Shown piece after piece: positions 19,776 through 26,613 of a stretch of 41,221 nt of DNA. Origin of the DNA: a virus; the IMG/VR virus record IMGVR_UViG_3300033155_000243, positions 1-41,221 of that record, one strand, 5' to 3'. The notes beneath the pieces were generated by a model that was not told the DNA's origin, did no database searches, and saw only the letters and a program-made list of their open reading frames with translations. Numbering within the stretch: position 1 is the stretch's first letter; each line of letters starts with the position of its first letter. The translations under genes were made by a program, and so were the position numbers.

Positions 19776-20588
19776 ATGGACAACAATAAAAATATAAGGT
19801 TGGTGTCGGGTGGGTTCGATCCTATACATGCAGGTCATATTGCTTTATTAAAAGCAGCCAGAAAAGAATTATCAGATCACATTCATACAATAGTTGCATT
19901 AAATTCAGATGATTGGTTAGTACGTAAGAAAGGCACGTATTTTATGCCATGGGAAGAACGCGCTAAGATTCTGGACAACATGGAAGGTGTGCAGGAAGTA
20001 ATGAAGTTCAATGACAGTGACGGAACAGCAAATGACGCAATAGCGAAATGTAAAGAACGCTGGCCTGGTTACACTGTACACTTTTATAATGGTGGCGACC
20101 GCAGTAAAGGAAACATAATGGAAATTATGAAGTACAGCGACGATCCTTTAGTAAAGTTTTATTTTGCGGCAGGCGGCGACATTAAAGAAAACAGCTCATC
20201 GGATATATTAAAAGATTGGCTCAACAGGCACATGGATTTAACAGAGCGCAATTGGGGGTCATACAAGGTGCTCGGCGAGTTGACAGGTGCAAAAATAAAA
20301 TTCTTAGATGTTGCACCTGGTAAATCATTAAGTATGCAGAAACATGAACATCGCAGCGAGCACTGGTTTGTGGCATGGGGAACAGCGACATTAGAAATGC
20401 ACGAAGGTGATCTAGAGGATAATAGACCAAATATCATGCAGCTGGGCAGACATTCACTTATTACAGTCCCGGTTGGTCATTGGCATAAACTGAGTAACAA
20501 TAGCAACGACAAACTATACATTGTAGAAATACAATACGGCGAAAAATGTGAAGAGTCAGACATAGTAGTTCAACTAGTAGATAAATAA
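19776..20588 (+). CDS. Nucleotidyltransferase-cupin fusion
   Basis: A 270-residue two-domain protein. Residues 8-150 form a cytidylyltransferase-like Rossmann domain with GGFDPIHAGHI (12-22, the HxGH motif) and an ENSSSDILKDW segment (138-148), as in RfaE/TagD-type enzymes. Residues 158-266 are a cupin like the C-terminal domain of type II mannose-6-phosphate isomerase/GDP-mannose pyrophosphorylase: RNWGSYKVL, PGKSLSMQKHEHRSEHW and VPVGHWHKL, with metal-type His at 190, 192, 196 and 235/237. Together they suggest synthesis or transfer of an activated sugar or polyol. The product may modify host surface, virion or nucleotides; which is not visible. No clear ribosome site precedes the ATG. Confidence 0.75.
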   Translation: MDNNKNIRLVSGGFDPIHAGHIALLKAARKELSDHIHTIVALNSDDWLVRKKGTYFMPWEERAKILDNMEGVQEVMKFNDSDGTANDAIAKCKERWPGYTVHFYNGGDRSKGNIMEIMKYSDDPLVKFYFAAGGDIKENSSSDILKDWLNRHMDLTERNWGSYKVLGELTGAKIKFLDVAPGKSLSMQKHEHRSEHWFVAWGTATLEMHEGDLEDNRPNIMQLGRHSLITVPVGHWHKLSNNSNDKLYIVEIQYGEKCEESDIVVQLVDK

Positions 20589-21451: not shown

Positions 21452-22480
21452 ATGCAAGTAACAATCAACCAAGGCGAGTATCGCGGCATAGAAGTTCACA
21501 ACCAAACGTTTGAATTGGTTGCTGATGTTAAAGAAGGTGCGCGAGGCCATTTCATTACAGTCCGTCCAAATGCTGAGATAGGTGAAGGACGTGACAAAAT
21601 CCGTATTAAAGTATTACCACAGAATATTGAATACCCAGAAGGTGTTCAACTTAGTACTTCCCCTGTAGCCGAAGCGGTGCAGTTAGCCGTACCAGCTAAA
21701 ATAGAAACTGACGAAGAGGTTATTGCACGTATAGCAGACCGCTTCGAGATTCTAGAGGAAATGACTGCCGCTGCAATTGAAGCTAAGGTGCGTGGCATGA
21801 TAGTTGTAGGACCTCCAGGTGTTGGTAAATCGTATGGTGTAATACGCCAGCTAGAGAAAGCTCATTTGTTTGATCAGGTTGCTAACCGCATGCCGAAATA
21901 CGAAATTGTAAAAGGTGCAATGTCAGCACTAGGCCTGTACATGAAACTCTACAACAATAACGATGCAAATCAAGTTATCGTGTTTGATGATTGTGATGGA
22001 ATTTTAATGGACGACCTGAGTTTGAACTTGCTGAAGGCAGCACTAGACAGTGGCAAGCGCCGCAAGATATGTTGGAACTTAGATTCTAACGCACTCCGCG
22101 CTGAAGGTATTCCAGATAACTTCGACTTTAAAGGTAGCGTGATCTTTATCACTAACATACAGTTTGATAATATCCGCTCTAAGAAGTTGCAGGATCACTT
22201 GTCAGCACTTCAGTCACGTTGTCACTACCTGGATCTTACAATGAATACGATGCGCGATCGCATGTTACGTATTCGTCAAATCCATAACACAGGCGAACTG
22301 TTTGCACACTACCGCTTCAAAGGTAATGAAGGCGATCAGATTGTTGACTACATGGAAGAGAACAAGGACCGCTTACGTGAATTATCATTGCGTATGGCAG
22401 TGAAGATCGCGGACTTGATGAAGGTTACTAAAAACTGGAAACGGTTAGCTGAATCAACTGTAATGAAGAACAGCTTCTAA
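21452..22480 (+). CDS. AAA+ ATPase, unknown target
   Basis: A 342-residue protein. An N-terminal beta region (1-80) precedes the ATPase module: Walker A GPPGVGKS (120-127), Walker B VIVFDDCD (175-182), sensor-1 IFITN (231-235) and an arginine-rich segment MRDRMLRIRQI near residues 263-275. It does not look like the clamp loader gp44, whose partner gp62 is encoded elsewhere in this window. It may remodel DNA or protein complexes. The second acidic residue of Walker B is Asp rather than Glu. A good ribosome site and an extended -10 promoter with upstream repeats suggest tight regulation. The small gene at 22492 follows in the same transcript. Confidence 0.8.
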   Translation: MQVTINQGEYRGIEVHNQTFELVADVKEGARGHFITVRPNAEIGEGRDKIRIKVLPQNIEYPEGVQLSTSPVAEAVQLAVPAKIETDEEVIARIADRFEILEEMTAAAIEAKVRGMIVVGPPGVGKSYGVIRQLEKAHLFDQVANRMPKYEIVKGAMSALGLYMKLYNNNDANQVIVFDDCDGILMDDLSLNLLKAALDSGKRRKICWNLDSNALRAEGIPDNFDFKGSVIFITNIQFDNIRSKKLQDHLSALQSRCHYLDLTMNTMRDRMLRIRQIHNTGELFAHYRFKGNEGDQIVDYMEENKDRLRELSLRMAVKIADLMKVTKNWKRLAESTVMKNSF

Positions 22481-22491
22481 GGGAGACTGAC

Positions 22492-22656
22492 ATGTTTGAA
22501 CATAATGATACATTAAAGTACTTACCGGGTGGAGTTATAGTAACAGTCACCGAAGTACATGACAGACATATTGTAGCAGTAACCGATGACGATATGGAAG
22601 AATATGTTGATATTTACGAAGACGAATATGATCAGTACGAGAAGGTAAAGTCTTAA
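22492..22656 (+). CDS. 54-aa acidic protein, unknown
   Basis: A 54-residue ORF starting MFEHNDTLKYLPGG and rich in Asp, Glu and Tyr at its C-terminal half (DDDMEEYVDIYEDEYD). GGGAGA 6 bases upstream of the ATG, 11 bases after the AAA+ stop, is a strong ribosome site. The N-terminal half looks like a small beta hairpin (GGVIVTVTEVHDRHIVAVTDD). Function unknown; it may assist the ATPase encoded just before it. Confidence 0.6.
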   Translation: MFEHNDTLKYLPGGVIVTVTEVHDRHIVAVTDDDMEEYVDIYEDEYDQYEKVKS

Positions 22657-22670
22657 AGTTTAGAGAAGAA

Positions 22671-22714
22671 CGGACGTTTTAATTTCACATCTTTGACTCC
22701 TGTAGAAACGTCCG
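22671..22714. repeat. 9-bp inverted repeat with 26-nt loop
   Basis: CGGACGTTT (22671-22679) and AAACGTCCG (22706-22714) are exact reverse complements. They lie between the 54-aa gene and the terminator and could form an RNA stem-loop or a protein site. Confidence 0.6.
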
Positions 22715-22723
22715 ATTACTCTT

Positions 22724-22746
22724 AGAGCCCGAAAGGGCTCTTTTTT
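22724..22746 (+). terminator. Terminator after the AAA+ operon
   Basis: AGAGCCC (22724-22730), GAAA loop, GGGCTCT (22735-22741) and a run of T. Confidence 0.88.
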
Positions 22747-22758
22747 ATTGCAAAAAGA

Positions 22759-22788
22759 ATGACGAGGAAGTAACAGATGTGCTATAAT
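22759..22788 (+). promoter_or_regulatory. Extended -10 promoter of the radical SAM gene
   Basis: TGCTATAAT ending at 22788 with a weak -35 (ATGACG at 22759-22764, 18-nt spacer). The ATG at 22794 follows the -10 after five bases, so the mRNA should be leaderless. Confidence 0.6.
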
Positions 22789-22793
22789 AAGTT

Positions 22794-23984
22794 ATGACGG
22801 AGAAGAAGATATTTTGCCACCACCCGTGGACCAATTTGGGTATTAATGCAAACGGTAAATTGAAACCGTGTTGCAGATTTGCACCTGAAGAGATAGTCGA
22901 TGATTTTGGGCAGATGATGAATATCAAAACGCACTCAATAGCTGACTACAAGAAGACCAAGTTCCTTAGGAGAACCAAGCAGCAACTACTAGACGGTGTA
23001 TGGCCCAAGGGTTGTGACCGTTGTAAGTACGAAGAGGATCGTGGCATTGACAGCAAGCGCCAACTAGACTTCACAAGGTGGCAAGAAGCGTACAAGGGCT
23101 ATGACATGGAGTCAGGTAAGTTCATAACATCTAACATAGCACTTGGTACCGTATGTAACTTGAAATGTATAATGTGTCGCCCACAAGTATCAAGCGCATG
23201 GCGCAAAGAATGGAATACAATTTATAATACCGAGTACAAAGATTTCAAAGTAACCAAGCACAACTTTGTGGAAGAGTTCACTGAGAGCGCACCAAAATTA
23301 ATACACTTAGATGTGACAGGTGGCGAACCATTCCTGAATGAGTTAGAACAGCTCAAAGGTATAATGCAATTTCACATTGATACAGACAACGCTAAGGATA
23401 TGTGTGTACACCTAACGACCAACACTACGATATATCCAGATGACAGCATCTGGAAACTACTGTCGCACTTCAAAGAAGTAGATATGCAGCTCAGCATAGA
23501 TGGAATTGGTAAACGTTTTGAGTACATACGATTCAACGCTAAGTGGGACGAGTCACTACCAATTATTAAACAGTTCATTGAGGCTGAAAAGAAATACAAC
23601 AACGTGCGATTGAGTGTAAGCTGTACGATAAGCGCATACAACATATATTACCTGGACGAGTTTACTACGTGGTGCGAAGATATTGGATTACCTAAACCGT
23701 ACTTTGGTCCTGTGTTTGATCCGTTCCATTTAATGCCTGGAGTATGGCGCGCTGATATTAAAGCAAAGATAGCAGAACATTTAAATGAGAGTAGCAACGA
23801 GATTGTTAGGCAATGGGCAGCTTCTATTATAGCAAACCCAGAAGACGAAGAACGGTTTGATGAGTTTGTAGAATTTACTCGCACACATGATGAGTACAGG
23901 AAGAACAATTTTGTTGAGACGTTCCCTGAACTATCAGCACTACTTAAAGAAGCTGGTTGCCTAAATGATATATTATGGAAATAG
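22794..23984 (+). CDS. Radical SAM protein with N-terminal twitch-like cysteines
   Basis: A 396-residue radical SAM enzyme. The 4Fe-4S motif CNLKCIMC is at residues 121-128 and the SAM-contacting TGGEP is at 175-179. Before it, Cys8, Cys26/27, Cys74 and Cys77 (CDRC) form a second cysteine set with the HPWTNLGINANGKLKPCC pattern typical of twitch/SPASM auxiliary cluster regions. Here that region is N-terminal to the SAM barrel. Such enzymes modify peptides or small substrates by radical chemistry; the substrate is unknown. Nothing resembling a precursor peptide was recognised next to it. It starts directly behind a -10 box without a ribosome site. Its end overlaps an alternative start of the next gene. 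Confidence 0.85.
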   Translation: MTEKKIFCHHPWTNLGINANGKLKPCCRFAPEEIVDDFGQMMNIKTHSIADYKKTKFLRRTKQQLLDGVWPKGCDRCKYEEDRGIDSKRQLDFTRWQEAYKGYDMESGKFITSNIALGTVCNLKCIMCRPQVSSAWRKEWNTIYNTEYKDFKVTKHNFVEEFTESAPKLIHLDVTGGEPFLNELEQLKGIMQFHIDTDNAKDMCVHLTTNTTIYPDDSIWKLLSHFKEVDMQLSIDGIGKRFEYIRFNAKWDESLPIIKQFIEAEKKYNNVRLSVSCTISAYNIYYLDEFTTWCEDIGLPKPYFGPVFDPFHLMPGVWRADIKAKIAEHLNESSNEIVRQWAASIIANPEDEERFDEFVEFTRTHDEYRKNNFVETFPELSALLKEAGCLNDILWK

Positions 23985-24004
23985 ATATATTCGGAGTAAG
24001 AGAA

Positions 24005-25153
24005 ATGCCTAAACTAAAACCTGTAGTTGAAAAGATTGTACTGCAAGCTAATCGAGATGCGATGCACGGTGACCTTATGGTTAAGGTCCGACTCAACCGT
24101 TATGACTTACGGTTTATGTCTAACATCGAACAGAAGTACTTGTCTAAAGACAAGCCACTTAGTCCAGGCCAGAATGAACTGTACGAAAAGATTGTACACA
24201 AATATAGAAAGCAACTCAGGAAGCTAGGTGTAAATTACAGAGATGTAATTGCATTGCCATGGGAGAATGGTATCATTGAAGTTGATACGTTAACTCAGCA
24301 AACATATTTCAGACTTGCTGAAATTGACAATAATACTGTGATCCAACTTTACTTTAACTTTAACAAACAACAGATTGAAACAGTTCGTGAAATTATTCAC
24401 GACGACGGCGGCAATCATTTAAACCGCGGCACCACCGTTAGTTTCGGTAATGGCCAAAAATATAATTTTACTTGGAACAAGGACGACAAGATTTGGCAAG
24501 GTCCATTTAACGTATATCTATTTAAACGGTTGTACGAATTCTCTAAGAGTATTGGAGTACGAATCGAAAGATCAGTAACTGAGTTTATAGAGAAAATGGA
24601 AGCACGTGGATTAGAGAATGCTTGGACACCACATGTACACGTAACCGACGGGCAGATTTATATCAGTCACTTAACAGAAACGATGTTACCGTACTTAGAG
24701 GATATTGACTTCTCAGATACGTCTGTGCAGAACTTAGAGCGTCTGACTAAGCTGGGATTAACAGGCCCGTGTATGCACGGCGCAATCGATCAGTACATAA
24801 ATAGTGTATCGTCAAACACCAAGCACAATATTATGAATGACGATGACGTTAACACTTTAAAGAAATACGTTAAAGAGAGTGGCCGCAAGGTACTTCTTTA
24901 TTCGACAATTGGTTGGAAGCCATCTAGAGATTCAATAGGATTCGGGTTAACAGAATGGGATGATAATGTACTTCGCGTAAATGCCGGAGACGTGAGTACT
25001 GCCGAAGCAATTGACAAATTCAAGGAAGAAGGGTATAATACATTAATATCCACAACGGCCATTAGCAATCTATTCCTTAACCAGGATCAGATTGGTAAGT
25101 TTGCATTAGAAGCAGACAAAGTACTATACATTTCAATAGCAGGGACTACGTGA
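24005..25153 (+). CDS. Unknown protein preceding UvsW
   Basis: A 382-residue protein when started at ATG 24005, which has GGAG eight bases upstream. An ATG at 23975 in the same frame adds ten residues but lacks a ribosome site and overlaps the previous gene. Residues 45-75 (SPGQNELYEKIVHKYRKQL) resemble the N-terminal helical region of some phage helicases, but no Walker motif is found. The C-terminal half (about 290-382) has an alternating alpha/beta pattern. The stop overlaps the UvsW GTG start, so a role with UvsW is likely. A consensus promoter lies inside its 3' end. Confidence 0.6.
   Translation: MPKLKPVVEKIVLQANRDAMHGDLMVKVRLNRYDLRFMSNIEQKYLSKDKPLSPGQNELYEKIVHKYRKQLRKLGVNYRDVIALPWENGIIEVDTLTQQTYFRLAEIDNNTVIQLYFNFNKQQIETVREIIHDDGGNHLNRGTTVSFGNGQKYNFTWNKDDKIWQGPFNVYLFKRLYEFSKSIGVRIERSVTEFIEKMEARGLENAWTPHVHVTDGQIYISHLTETMLPYLEDIDFSDTSVQNLERLTKLGLTGPCMHGAIDQYINSVSSNTKHNIMNDDDVNTLKKYVKESGRKVLLYSTIGWKPSRDSIGFGLTEWDDNVLRVNAGDVSTAEAIDKFKEEGYNTLISTTAISNLFLNQDQIGKFALEADKVLYISIAGTT
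25011..25039 (+). promoter_or_regulatory. Consensus sigma70 promoter inside the gene before UvsW
   Basis: TTGACA (25011-25016), exactly 17 bases, TATAAT (25034-25039). Both boxes match consensus at every position. It points at uvsW, whose GTG is about 110 bases downstream. Confidence 0.7.
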
Positions 25154-26613
25154 CAACAGCAACTATAATAATAAAAGATGAAGTCAATTGTAAAATACAA
25201 AATTTAGATTTAACTACAAGACAAAAATTATCCAAACGTTTTAAGTACCAAGTGCCTTATGCAAGGCACATGCCTTCGTTTAAGCTAGGAAGATGGGATG
25301 GCAAAGTAGCGTTCTTCCAGCTTGGCGGTAGTACGTATATATCAATGCTAGACGAAATCCTTCCTATACTTATAGACGAAGGATACGATATACAGTTAGA
25401 CGATCGTCGCAACTACAGTTCGCATTTTGAATTTCCGAAAGTAGATGTAAACACATTCTCACATATTACATGGCCGGAAGGACATCGCTTTGAGGGCGAG
25501 CCTATTGTATTGAATGATCATCAAGTAACTTCCATAAACAACTATCTCGAAAATCCACAGTGTATGCAGGAAATCGCTACCGGTGCAGGCAAGACAATTA
25601 TAACAGCCGCACTTAGTTTATTCGCAGAGCCATATGGTCGTAGTATTGTAATTGTACCTAACAAGTCCTTAGTAACACAAACAGAAGAAGACTACATCAA
25701 CATGGGGCTGGACGTCGGTGTGTACTACGGTGGCAGAAAGGAATGGAACAAGACGCATACAATTTGTACATGGCAAAGTCTTAATCAGTTATATAAGGAT
25801 TCAAAGAATGGCAAAGCACTCTTAACACTTGATGAATTTCTTGATGATGTTAAGTGTGTTATTGTTGATGAAGTGCATAGTGCTAAAGCAGATGCACTGA
25901 AGGCAATGCTCACAGGCCCAATGGCGCACATACCTTTAAGGTGGGGCCTGACAGGCACAGTACCAAAAGAACAATTTGAATTAAAGACTATTGAATGCAG
26001 CATAGGTAAAGTTATCGGGCAGGTATCAGCAGCAGAGTTACAGAAGAAAGGTTTACTTGCTAACTGCCACGTACACATTAAGCAGCTACAGGACAACAGA
26101 GACTTGGGTAACTACCAAGCAGAACTAAAATACCTGCTTACAGACCCTGACAGGCTAGATCACATAGCTGAAATGATCATAGGCCAATCATTAACAGGCA
26201 ACACATTAGTACTTGTGGATAGGGTAGTTGCGGCTACTGAGTTAGCATTACGGCTACCACCAGACCGTGCATCAGTTGTAACGGGCAAGGTAAAAGTAGA
26301 CAAGCGCAAAGAAGAATATGATGAAGTAGCAAGCACAGACAATAAGATTATCATTGCCACATATGGAGTAGCAGCCGTAGGACTTAATATACCACGTATC
26401 TTTAACCTTGTGTTAATTGAACCAGGTAAGTCTTTCGTTCGCGTAATACAAAGCATAGGGCGAAGCCTACGTGTTGCTGACGACAAGGACTACGCAGACA
26501 TATACGATATAACAAGTAACTGCAAATTTGCAAAACGACACCTTACAAAACGTAAACAGTTTTATAGGGAGGCCGAGTACCCATTTAAAGTAGAGAAGAT
26601 CCACTGGAAATGA
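25150..26613 (+). CDS. uvsW: DNA helicase
   Basis: A 487-residue superfamily 2 helicase close to T4 UvsW (503). Motif I is ATGAGKT (143-149), motif II DEVH (240-243), motif III LTGT (about 272-275), and motif VI QSIGRSLR (about 442-449). The N-terminal 100 residues match the small UvsW DNA-binding domain (RFKYQVPYARHMP, GRWDGKVAFF). UvsW unwinds R-loops and branched DNA and shifts replication from origin to recombination mode. The start is GTG in a GTGA overlap with the previous gene. The 3' end overlaps the following ATG (ATGA). Confidence 0.93.
   Translation: MTTATIIIKDEVNCKIQNLDLTTRQKLSKRFKYQVPYARHMPSFKLGRWDGKVAFFQLGGSTYISMLDEILPILIDEGYDIQLDDRRNYSSHFEFPKVDVNTFSHITWPEGHRFEGEPIVLNDHQVTSINNYLENPQCMQEIATGAGKTIITAALSLFAEPYGRSIVIVPNKSLVTQTEEDYINMGLDVGVYYGGRKEWNKTHTICTWQSLNQLYKDSKNGKALLTLDEFLDDVKCVIVDEVHSAKADALKAMLTGPMAHIPLRWGLTGTVPKEQFELKTIECSIGKVIGQVSAAELQKKGLLANCHVHIKQLQDNRDLGNYQAELKYLLTDPDRLDHIAEMIIGQSLTGNTLVLVDRVVAATELALRLPPDRASVVTGKVKVDKRKEEYDEVASTDNKIIIATYGVAAVGLNIPRIFNLVLIEPGKSFVRVIQSIGRSLRVADDKDYADIYDITSNCKFAKRHLTKRKQFYREAEYPFKVEKIHWK

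Follow-up and report, generated by a model that had tools for sequence, protein, structure and literature searches.

We propose, at odds of roughly one in two, that the gene at positions 22794–23984 of the window, the 41,221-base virus record analysed here (all window features lie on the + strand), encodes a functional phage BtrN-like radical oxidoreductase, an oxidase or epimerase, that most likely acts on a surface-glycan sugar. Our analyses revealed a radical SAM enzyme with its auxiliary-cluster domain at the N terminus, conserved cysteines, a fixed genomic slot and, for some relatives, a glycan-gene context; from these observations we infer cluster ligation, the type of reaction, a sugar substrate and a role in infection. 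The radical SAM gene is real and conserved, and it is new within an already named family. The new part is the glycan reading, for which the odds are about even.

The 396-residue protein, called as an open reading frame with an ATG start, is matched over its whole length by NCBIfam NF033640 (N_Twi_rSAM) at 300.2–300.5 bits (model positions 2–397 of 398; residues 5–383), against a curated cut-off of 170 bits. Pfam SPASM aligns with residues 8–78 (22815–23027; E = 6e-6), and Pfam Radical_SAM aligns with residues 118–265 (23145–23588; E = 1.4e-5, below the gathering score), the barrel core that fold matches also cover. The N-terminal segment carries the motif CX9-15GX4C, gap, CX2C (C8-X12-G21-X4-C26 and C74-X2-C77), which the part of PMC6231123 concerned with it gives as the first part of the SPASM motif, with one cluster; cysteines for a second SPASM cluster (CX5CX3C, gap, C) were not found in the protein. 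The SAM-binding [4Fe-4S] motif CX3CX2C follows at residues 121–128 (23154–23177; C121-NLK-C125-IM-C128), and this succession, an N-terminal cysteine set and then CX3CX2C, is the trait of NF033640. Since SPASM and twitch domains are described as C-terminal extensions in the relevant part of PMC9012708, the domain order is swapped here: the BtrN-type arrangement, with twitch C-terminal to the barrel, is not what we find. The first-pass annotation had placed the twitch-like part before the barrel, and this placement is borne out by NF033640, the Pfam SPASM match, cysteine invariance and a BtrN-twitch profile with four cysteines in register. Given the full-length match, the order is one that NCBI has already recognised, as the family name shows; domain order and cysteine pattern are those of N_Twi_rSAM, and nothing essential differs. 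No function for NF033640 or N_Twi_rSAM was found in the open-licence papers searched. Radical SAM cassettes are mentioned for pelagimyophages in a portion of PMC7029224, and the text of PMC12619734 contains no radical SAM terms.

The cysteines of the protein lie at residues 8, 26, 27, 74, 77, 121, 125, 128, 204, 277, 294 and 389. Both CX3CX2C at 121–128 and a second set before it (8, 26, 27, 74, 77), as read in the first pass, agree at every position with the translated reading frame. All 33 aligned rows share C8, C26, C74, C77, C121, C125 and C128; C27 is kept in 32, and C294, the only widely conserved cysteine outside residues 1–128, in 31. The same seven together with C27 are kept in 10 of 10 divergent N_Twi members that are 19–29% identical to the query, two of them cellular and five from Vibrio phages. 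Because the N-terminal set is invariant across the aligned relatives, it is not a product of chance, and C8, C26, C74 and C77 are the presumed ligands of an auxiliary cluster.

Which known enzyme does this domain resemble? The N-terminal-domain profile, searched against the PDB, returned BtrN entries only (E = 0.011 and 0.02), and the family profile found BtrN at E = 1.1e-4, with profile positions 3–94 on BtrN 168–257. Counted along the profile alignment, C8, C26, C74 and C77 fall on BtrN residues 169, 187, 232 and 235, which we take to be the cluster-ligand cysteines of BtrN. In the relevant parts of PMC9012708 and PMC6231123, the auxiliary cluster of BtrN is fully ligated by four cysteines, and the enzyme oxidises a cyclitol alcohol. 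BtrN (2-deoxy-scyllo-inosamine dehydrogenase; PDB 4m7s, 4m7t) and the phage enzyme thus share a CX3CX2C barrel and a one-cluster, four-cysteine twitch, but the twitch comes last in BtrN and first in the phage enzyme, and sequence similarity is weak. In a single-sequence search of the PDB, SkfB came up at E = 0.019, besides one unrelated chain at E = 0.63. The AlphaFold2 model of the whole protein (pLDDT 90.9, pTM 0.89) matches viperin, anSME, CteB, BlsE, SkfB, DesII and MoaA, tied at Z of about 10–11.5; as judged from this predicted structure, the matches are to radical SAM barrels at large, peptide maturases and sugar enzymes both being among the best, and they favour no particular substrate. 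A separate model of the N-terminal domain (pLDDT 77.9) had no fold match in the PDB.

The mechanism that we envisage is as follows. C121, C125 and C128 would be the ligands of the SAM-cleaving [4Fe-4S] cluster, and the resulting 5'-deoxyadenosyl radical would abstract a hydrogen from the substrate. The single auxiliary cluster, bound by C8, C26, C74 and C77, may then serve as acceptor for the electron of the substrate radical, the role proposed in BtrN, so that the outcome would be a two-electron oxidation (dehydrogenation); alternatively, the intermediate could be quenched on its other face, giving epimerisation. The substrate would most likely be a surface-glycan sugar, of host lipopolysaccharide or polysaccharide or of a phage-made glycan, and it is conceivable that divergent paralogues each tailor a different position.

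The suggestion of a sugar comes from the surroundings of relatives. Vibrio phage K566 encodes four N_Twi-like proteins (202, 193, 154 and 142 bits, two of them over 170), and their cluster includes two GT8 genes, a weak GT4 and an annotated PagP. A carbamoyltransferase lies one open reading frame beyond the end of an array of N_Twi genes in a 344-kb relative, and in another record (G001) an epimerase-family gene stands between two N_Twi paralogues, with a GDP-mannose dehydratase some 0.45 kb beyond a third. Plasmid searches returned five records: the match enters the N-terminal domain in three (Azospirillum, Methylomagnum, Halobellus), and the two Streptomyces records match the barrel only. 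All three of the former, which we examined, sit in polysaccharide clusters, where the neighbours are variously glycosyltransferases, FkbM methyltransferases, epimerases or dehydrogenases of sugars, a flippase or an ABC exporter; the Azospirillum protein, at 121 bits, is under the NF033640 cut-off, and the Methylomagnum protein is annotated as a member of the family. Pfam matches were obtained for 4 of 10 scanned open reading frames beside the slot genes of other relatives (a further radical SAM, a 2OG-Fe(II) oxygenase, and two methyltransferases including an FkbM), and many flanking frames have none. FkbM genes occur in 6 of 14 records, mostly not adjacent to the N_Twi gene, and GDP-mannose dehydratase genes in 4 of 14. 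An N_Twi-like gene in Vibrio phage D484 (136 bits, under the cut-off) lies by two unrecognised frames, and no glycan gene was recognised in the stretch viewed. The neighbours of the radical SAM gene in the window are replication and recombination genes. A fusion of cytidylyltransferase-like and mannose-6-phosphate isomerase-like domains (19776–20588), two genes upstream of the phrog_1250 gene described below, is the only sugar-related gene among those scanned there. These co-locations are counts with no background rate, and from a sample of three records in the case of the plasmids; because phages pack accessory genes together, co-location may not mean a shared pathway. The first-pass annotation named no substrate; the K566, 344-kb, G001 and plasmid contexts point to glycans.

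The alternative that survives best, albeit an unlikely one, is that the enzyme modifies a peptide or protein, oxidising or cross-linking an amino acid in a protein of the phage or its host, such as a tail fibre, in the manner of the SPASM/twitch maturases. CteB, SkfB and anSME are among the top fold matches, the family profile finds anSME, ChlB, SkfB and CteB in the PDB, and upstream of the array in the 344-kb relative stands a gene for a probably tailspike-like product that contains a Peptidase_G2 (IMC autoproteolytic) domain. CteB, SkfB and anSME have the barrel fold in common with the phage enzyme, but their auxiliary domain is C-terminal, and the phage enzyme lacks the second SPASM cluster motif. 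Pfam scans of the protein gave only SPASM and Radical_SAM and no peptide-binding domain, and the cellular relatives sit in the polysaccharide clusters described above. No short open reading frame is constant beside the gene across 33 loci, in keeping with the earlier remark that there was no obvious precursor peptide; a RiPP maturase with a linked precursor was rejected, but a precursor that is distant or of another type could still exist. The sole gene-like, conserved short frame close upstream belongs to a family of 33–38 residues (YDGELFLFAVDTQYEADE type) without cysteine, which 11 of the 33 loci have and the window lacks (examples are L002 3099–3200, L003 4549–4650 and L008 9757–9867).

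That the gene makes a nucleotide or small-molecule enzyme, such as a viperin-like maker of chain terminators or a modifier of RNA or a cofactor, seems to us quite improbable. Viperin (5vsl) is among the best folds (Z 11.5, rmsd 3.6, 198 aligned residues), tied with many others, and there is a weak NCBIfam viperin match; against this, the fold matches cover the barrel, which is common to the superfamily, and the viperin model NF038283 scores 22.6 bits with a cut-off of 180. A viperin homologue was rejected. Viperin is not known to have an auxiliary-cluster domain. Pfam and PHROG scans recognised no nucleotide kinase beside the gene.

How is the gene distributed among phages? IMG/VR scans yielded 6 and then 57 loci with relatives; two scans of genome contigs gave 35 and 1 pattern-matching stretches, none of which encoded a relative. 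The nearest isolate phages are Vibrio phages K566 and K567 only, at 23% identity. In a tree of 62 rows, built after removing rows more than 95% identical and with the window protein represented by its twin L001, the protein falls in a clade of 30 rows (support 100/99). This clade was seen here only in virus contigs, and its nearest members are 42–46% identical, apart from the 100% twin. The slot in the window is marked on the left by a phrog_1250 gene with a weak AAA match (21452–22480) and on the right by a UvsW-like helicase gene (25150–26613), both assigned by Pfam and PHROG scans. Twenty-five of the 30 clade rows, from diverse T4-like phages, lie at most 1.5 kb after the phrog_1250 gene and/or at most 3.2 kb before uvsW, the others being L031, L032, L040, L041 and L042; relative to the window, the slot loci show about 63% identity in UvsW, 54% in the phrog_1250 product and about 45% in the enzyme.

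Other clades keep other addresses, here read by eye from neighbouring open reading frames in a tree whose long branches leave the deeper joins unsure. One lies beside the replicative helicase (L090, L091, L103 and one L039 gene; 99/96), one before terminase (one L058 gene, L089 and L112; 100/99) and one near UvsX (L088 and another L058 gene; 100/100), and a clade of L015, L017 and L030 is a second gene in the slot (100/100). A match of more than 170 bits to NF033640 is present in 22 of 22 records searched, which are those behind the loci and mostly the longer ones, and 7 of them have two or more. In the 344-kb relative (the record of L094) 13 matches were counted, 6 of them above the cut-off; they include the array of seven genes at 316.2–326.6 kb (10.3 kb), of which five score above it. 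Two of the 13, found at the ends of the contig, could belong to a single gene, and the weakest matches represent fragments or radical SAM genes of other kinds. T4-like phages of this kind often carry several N_Twi paralogues. In L112 (15763–17747), a radical SAM gene whose SPASM domain is C-terminal overlaps a GHMP-kinase gene, in a record that also has N_Twi genes.

The window carries T4-like genes for sheath, tube, neck, terminase, a gp32-like SSB, UvsX, UvsY, UvsW, primase and helicase. Directly upstream of the radical SAM gene, sequence and folding indicate a structured element (22656–22747) that ends in an intrinsic terminator, with a stem at 22724–22741 and then a T run, and a promoter-like site follows at 22759–22788 (ATGACG-18-TATAAT, with TG before the second hexamer). 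The gene had been described as standing alone, and a terminator and promoter do precede it, but it overlaps by 10 nt the downstream open reading frame (23975–25153; 392 residues, no Pfam or PHROG match), which itself overlaps uvsW (25150) by 4 nt. Promoter-like and terminator-like sites in the region are no more numerous than in shuffled sequences. The promoter-like site ends 5 nt before the ATG, and the radical SAM mRNA may therefore be leaderless, as judged from this position. By script and with no shuffled control, a terminator-like hairpin was found upstream in 17 of 25 slot loci and a promoter-like pair in 13, with the second hexamer ending 5–9 nt before the start codon in nine of the 13; seven loci have neither, and four of these (L010, L011, L018, L020) have an open reading frame directly upstream. 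A six-codon mini-ORF, MCYNKL (22777–22797), overlaps the promoter-like site, and its stop overlaps the radical SAM start codon.

The element itself consists of a 9–10-bp stem whose loop keeps ACTCCTGTA, followed by the terminator. Its stem varies with pairing kept among the window, L094, L095 and L096, with folding z-scores of -3.5 to -5.8. A hairpin scan of all collected loci gave seven distinct matches among 127 motif sites, of which four are the element (the twin contig L001, L094, L095 and L096) and three are unlike it; 12 permuted 7-mers, scanned as a control, gave 0–16 matches. In a pattern scan of IMG/VR (at least 119 stretches), the complete element recurred, among the matches listed, in just L162, L183 and L213, the first two being the contigs of L094 and L001 and the third carrying the letters of L095. 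Among the matches listed, then, the element occurs only in this clade. An Rfam scan of the window had no match.

L094, L095 and L096 are close to the window in core genes (UvsX 87–92%, UvsW 84–91%), and in all three the radical SAM gene is absent at the slot: the 392-residue frame, conserved between phrog_1250 and uvsW, follows the phrog_1250 gene. In L094, a terminator and promoter stand directly before this frame, and in the window the radical SAM gene sits between. Its absence from this slot in three core-close relatives makes the gene accessory. Relatives that have it are under purifying selection: dN/dS lay at 0.076–0.118 for each of the seven pairs tested. That the gene is selfish or transient cargo, with no function that matters to the phage, would agree with the empty slots but is very improbable, given this dN/dS, the address shared by most of the clade and the hairpin kept before the gene at most slot loci; a pseudogene was rejected.

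We return to the reading of the enzyme as a glycan-directed radical oxidoreductase, and to the supply of its clusters. Of 18 records, 6 carry a gene for an A-type carrier and 3 one for IscU; the window has neither. Adjacent IscU-like and A-type carrier genes were observed in two T4-like phage records (L114 17946–18648, L116 1531–2224). The pertinent section of PMC5332604 (2017) describes T4-like environmental phages with Fe-S assembly genes, one with 12 radical SAM genes. Multiple radical SAM genes are shared with the phages studied here, as are the A-type carrier and IscU of relatives; that section makes no mention of an N-terminal twitch or a glycan context. Tentatively, and with more doubt than confidence, we speculate that N_Twi enzymes form a radical glycan-tailoring toolkit that T4-like jumbo phages have in common with polysaccharide clusters of bacteria and archaea, and that the phages keep several old paralogues at fixed addresses, some with their own Fe-S assembly proteins, to alter the surface sugars of the host or the virion in the course of infection.

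If the enzyme acts on sugars, radical chemistry would join the means by which phages remodel cell surfaces. Vibrio phages K566 and K567, for which named public genomes exist, offer a possible test system, and address-specific paralogues would show how phages expand one enzyme family.
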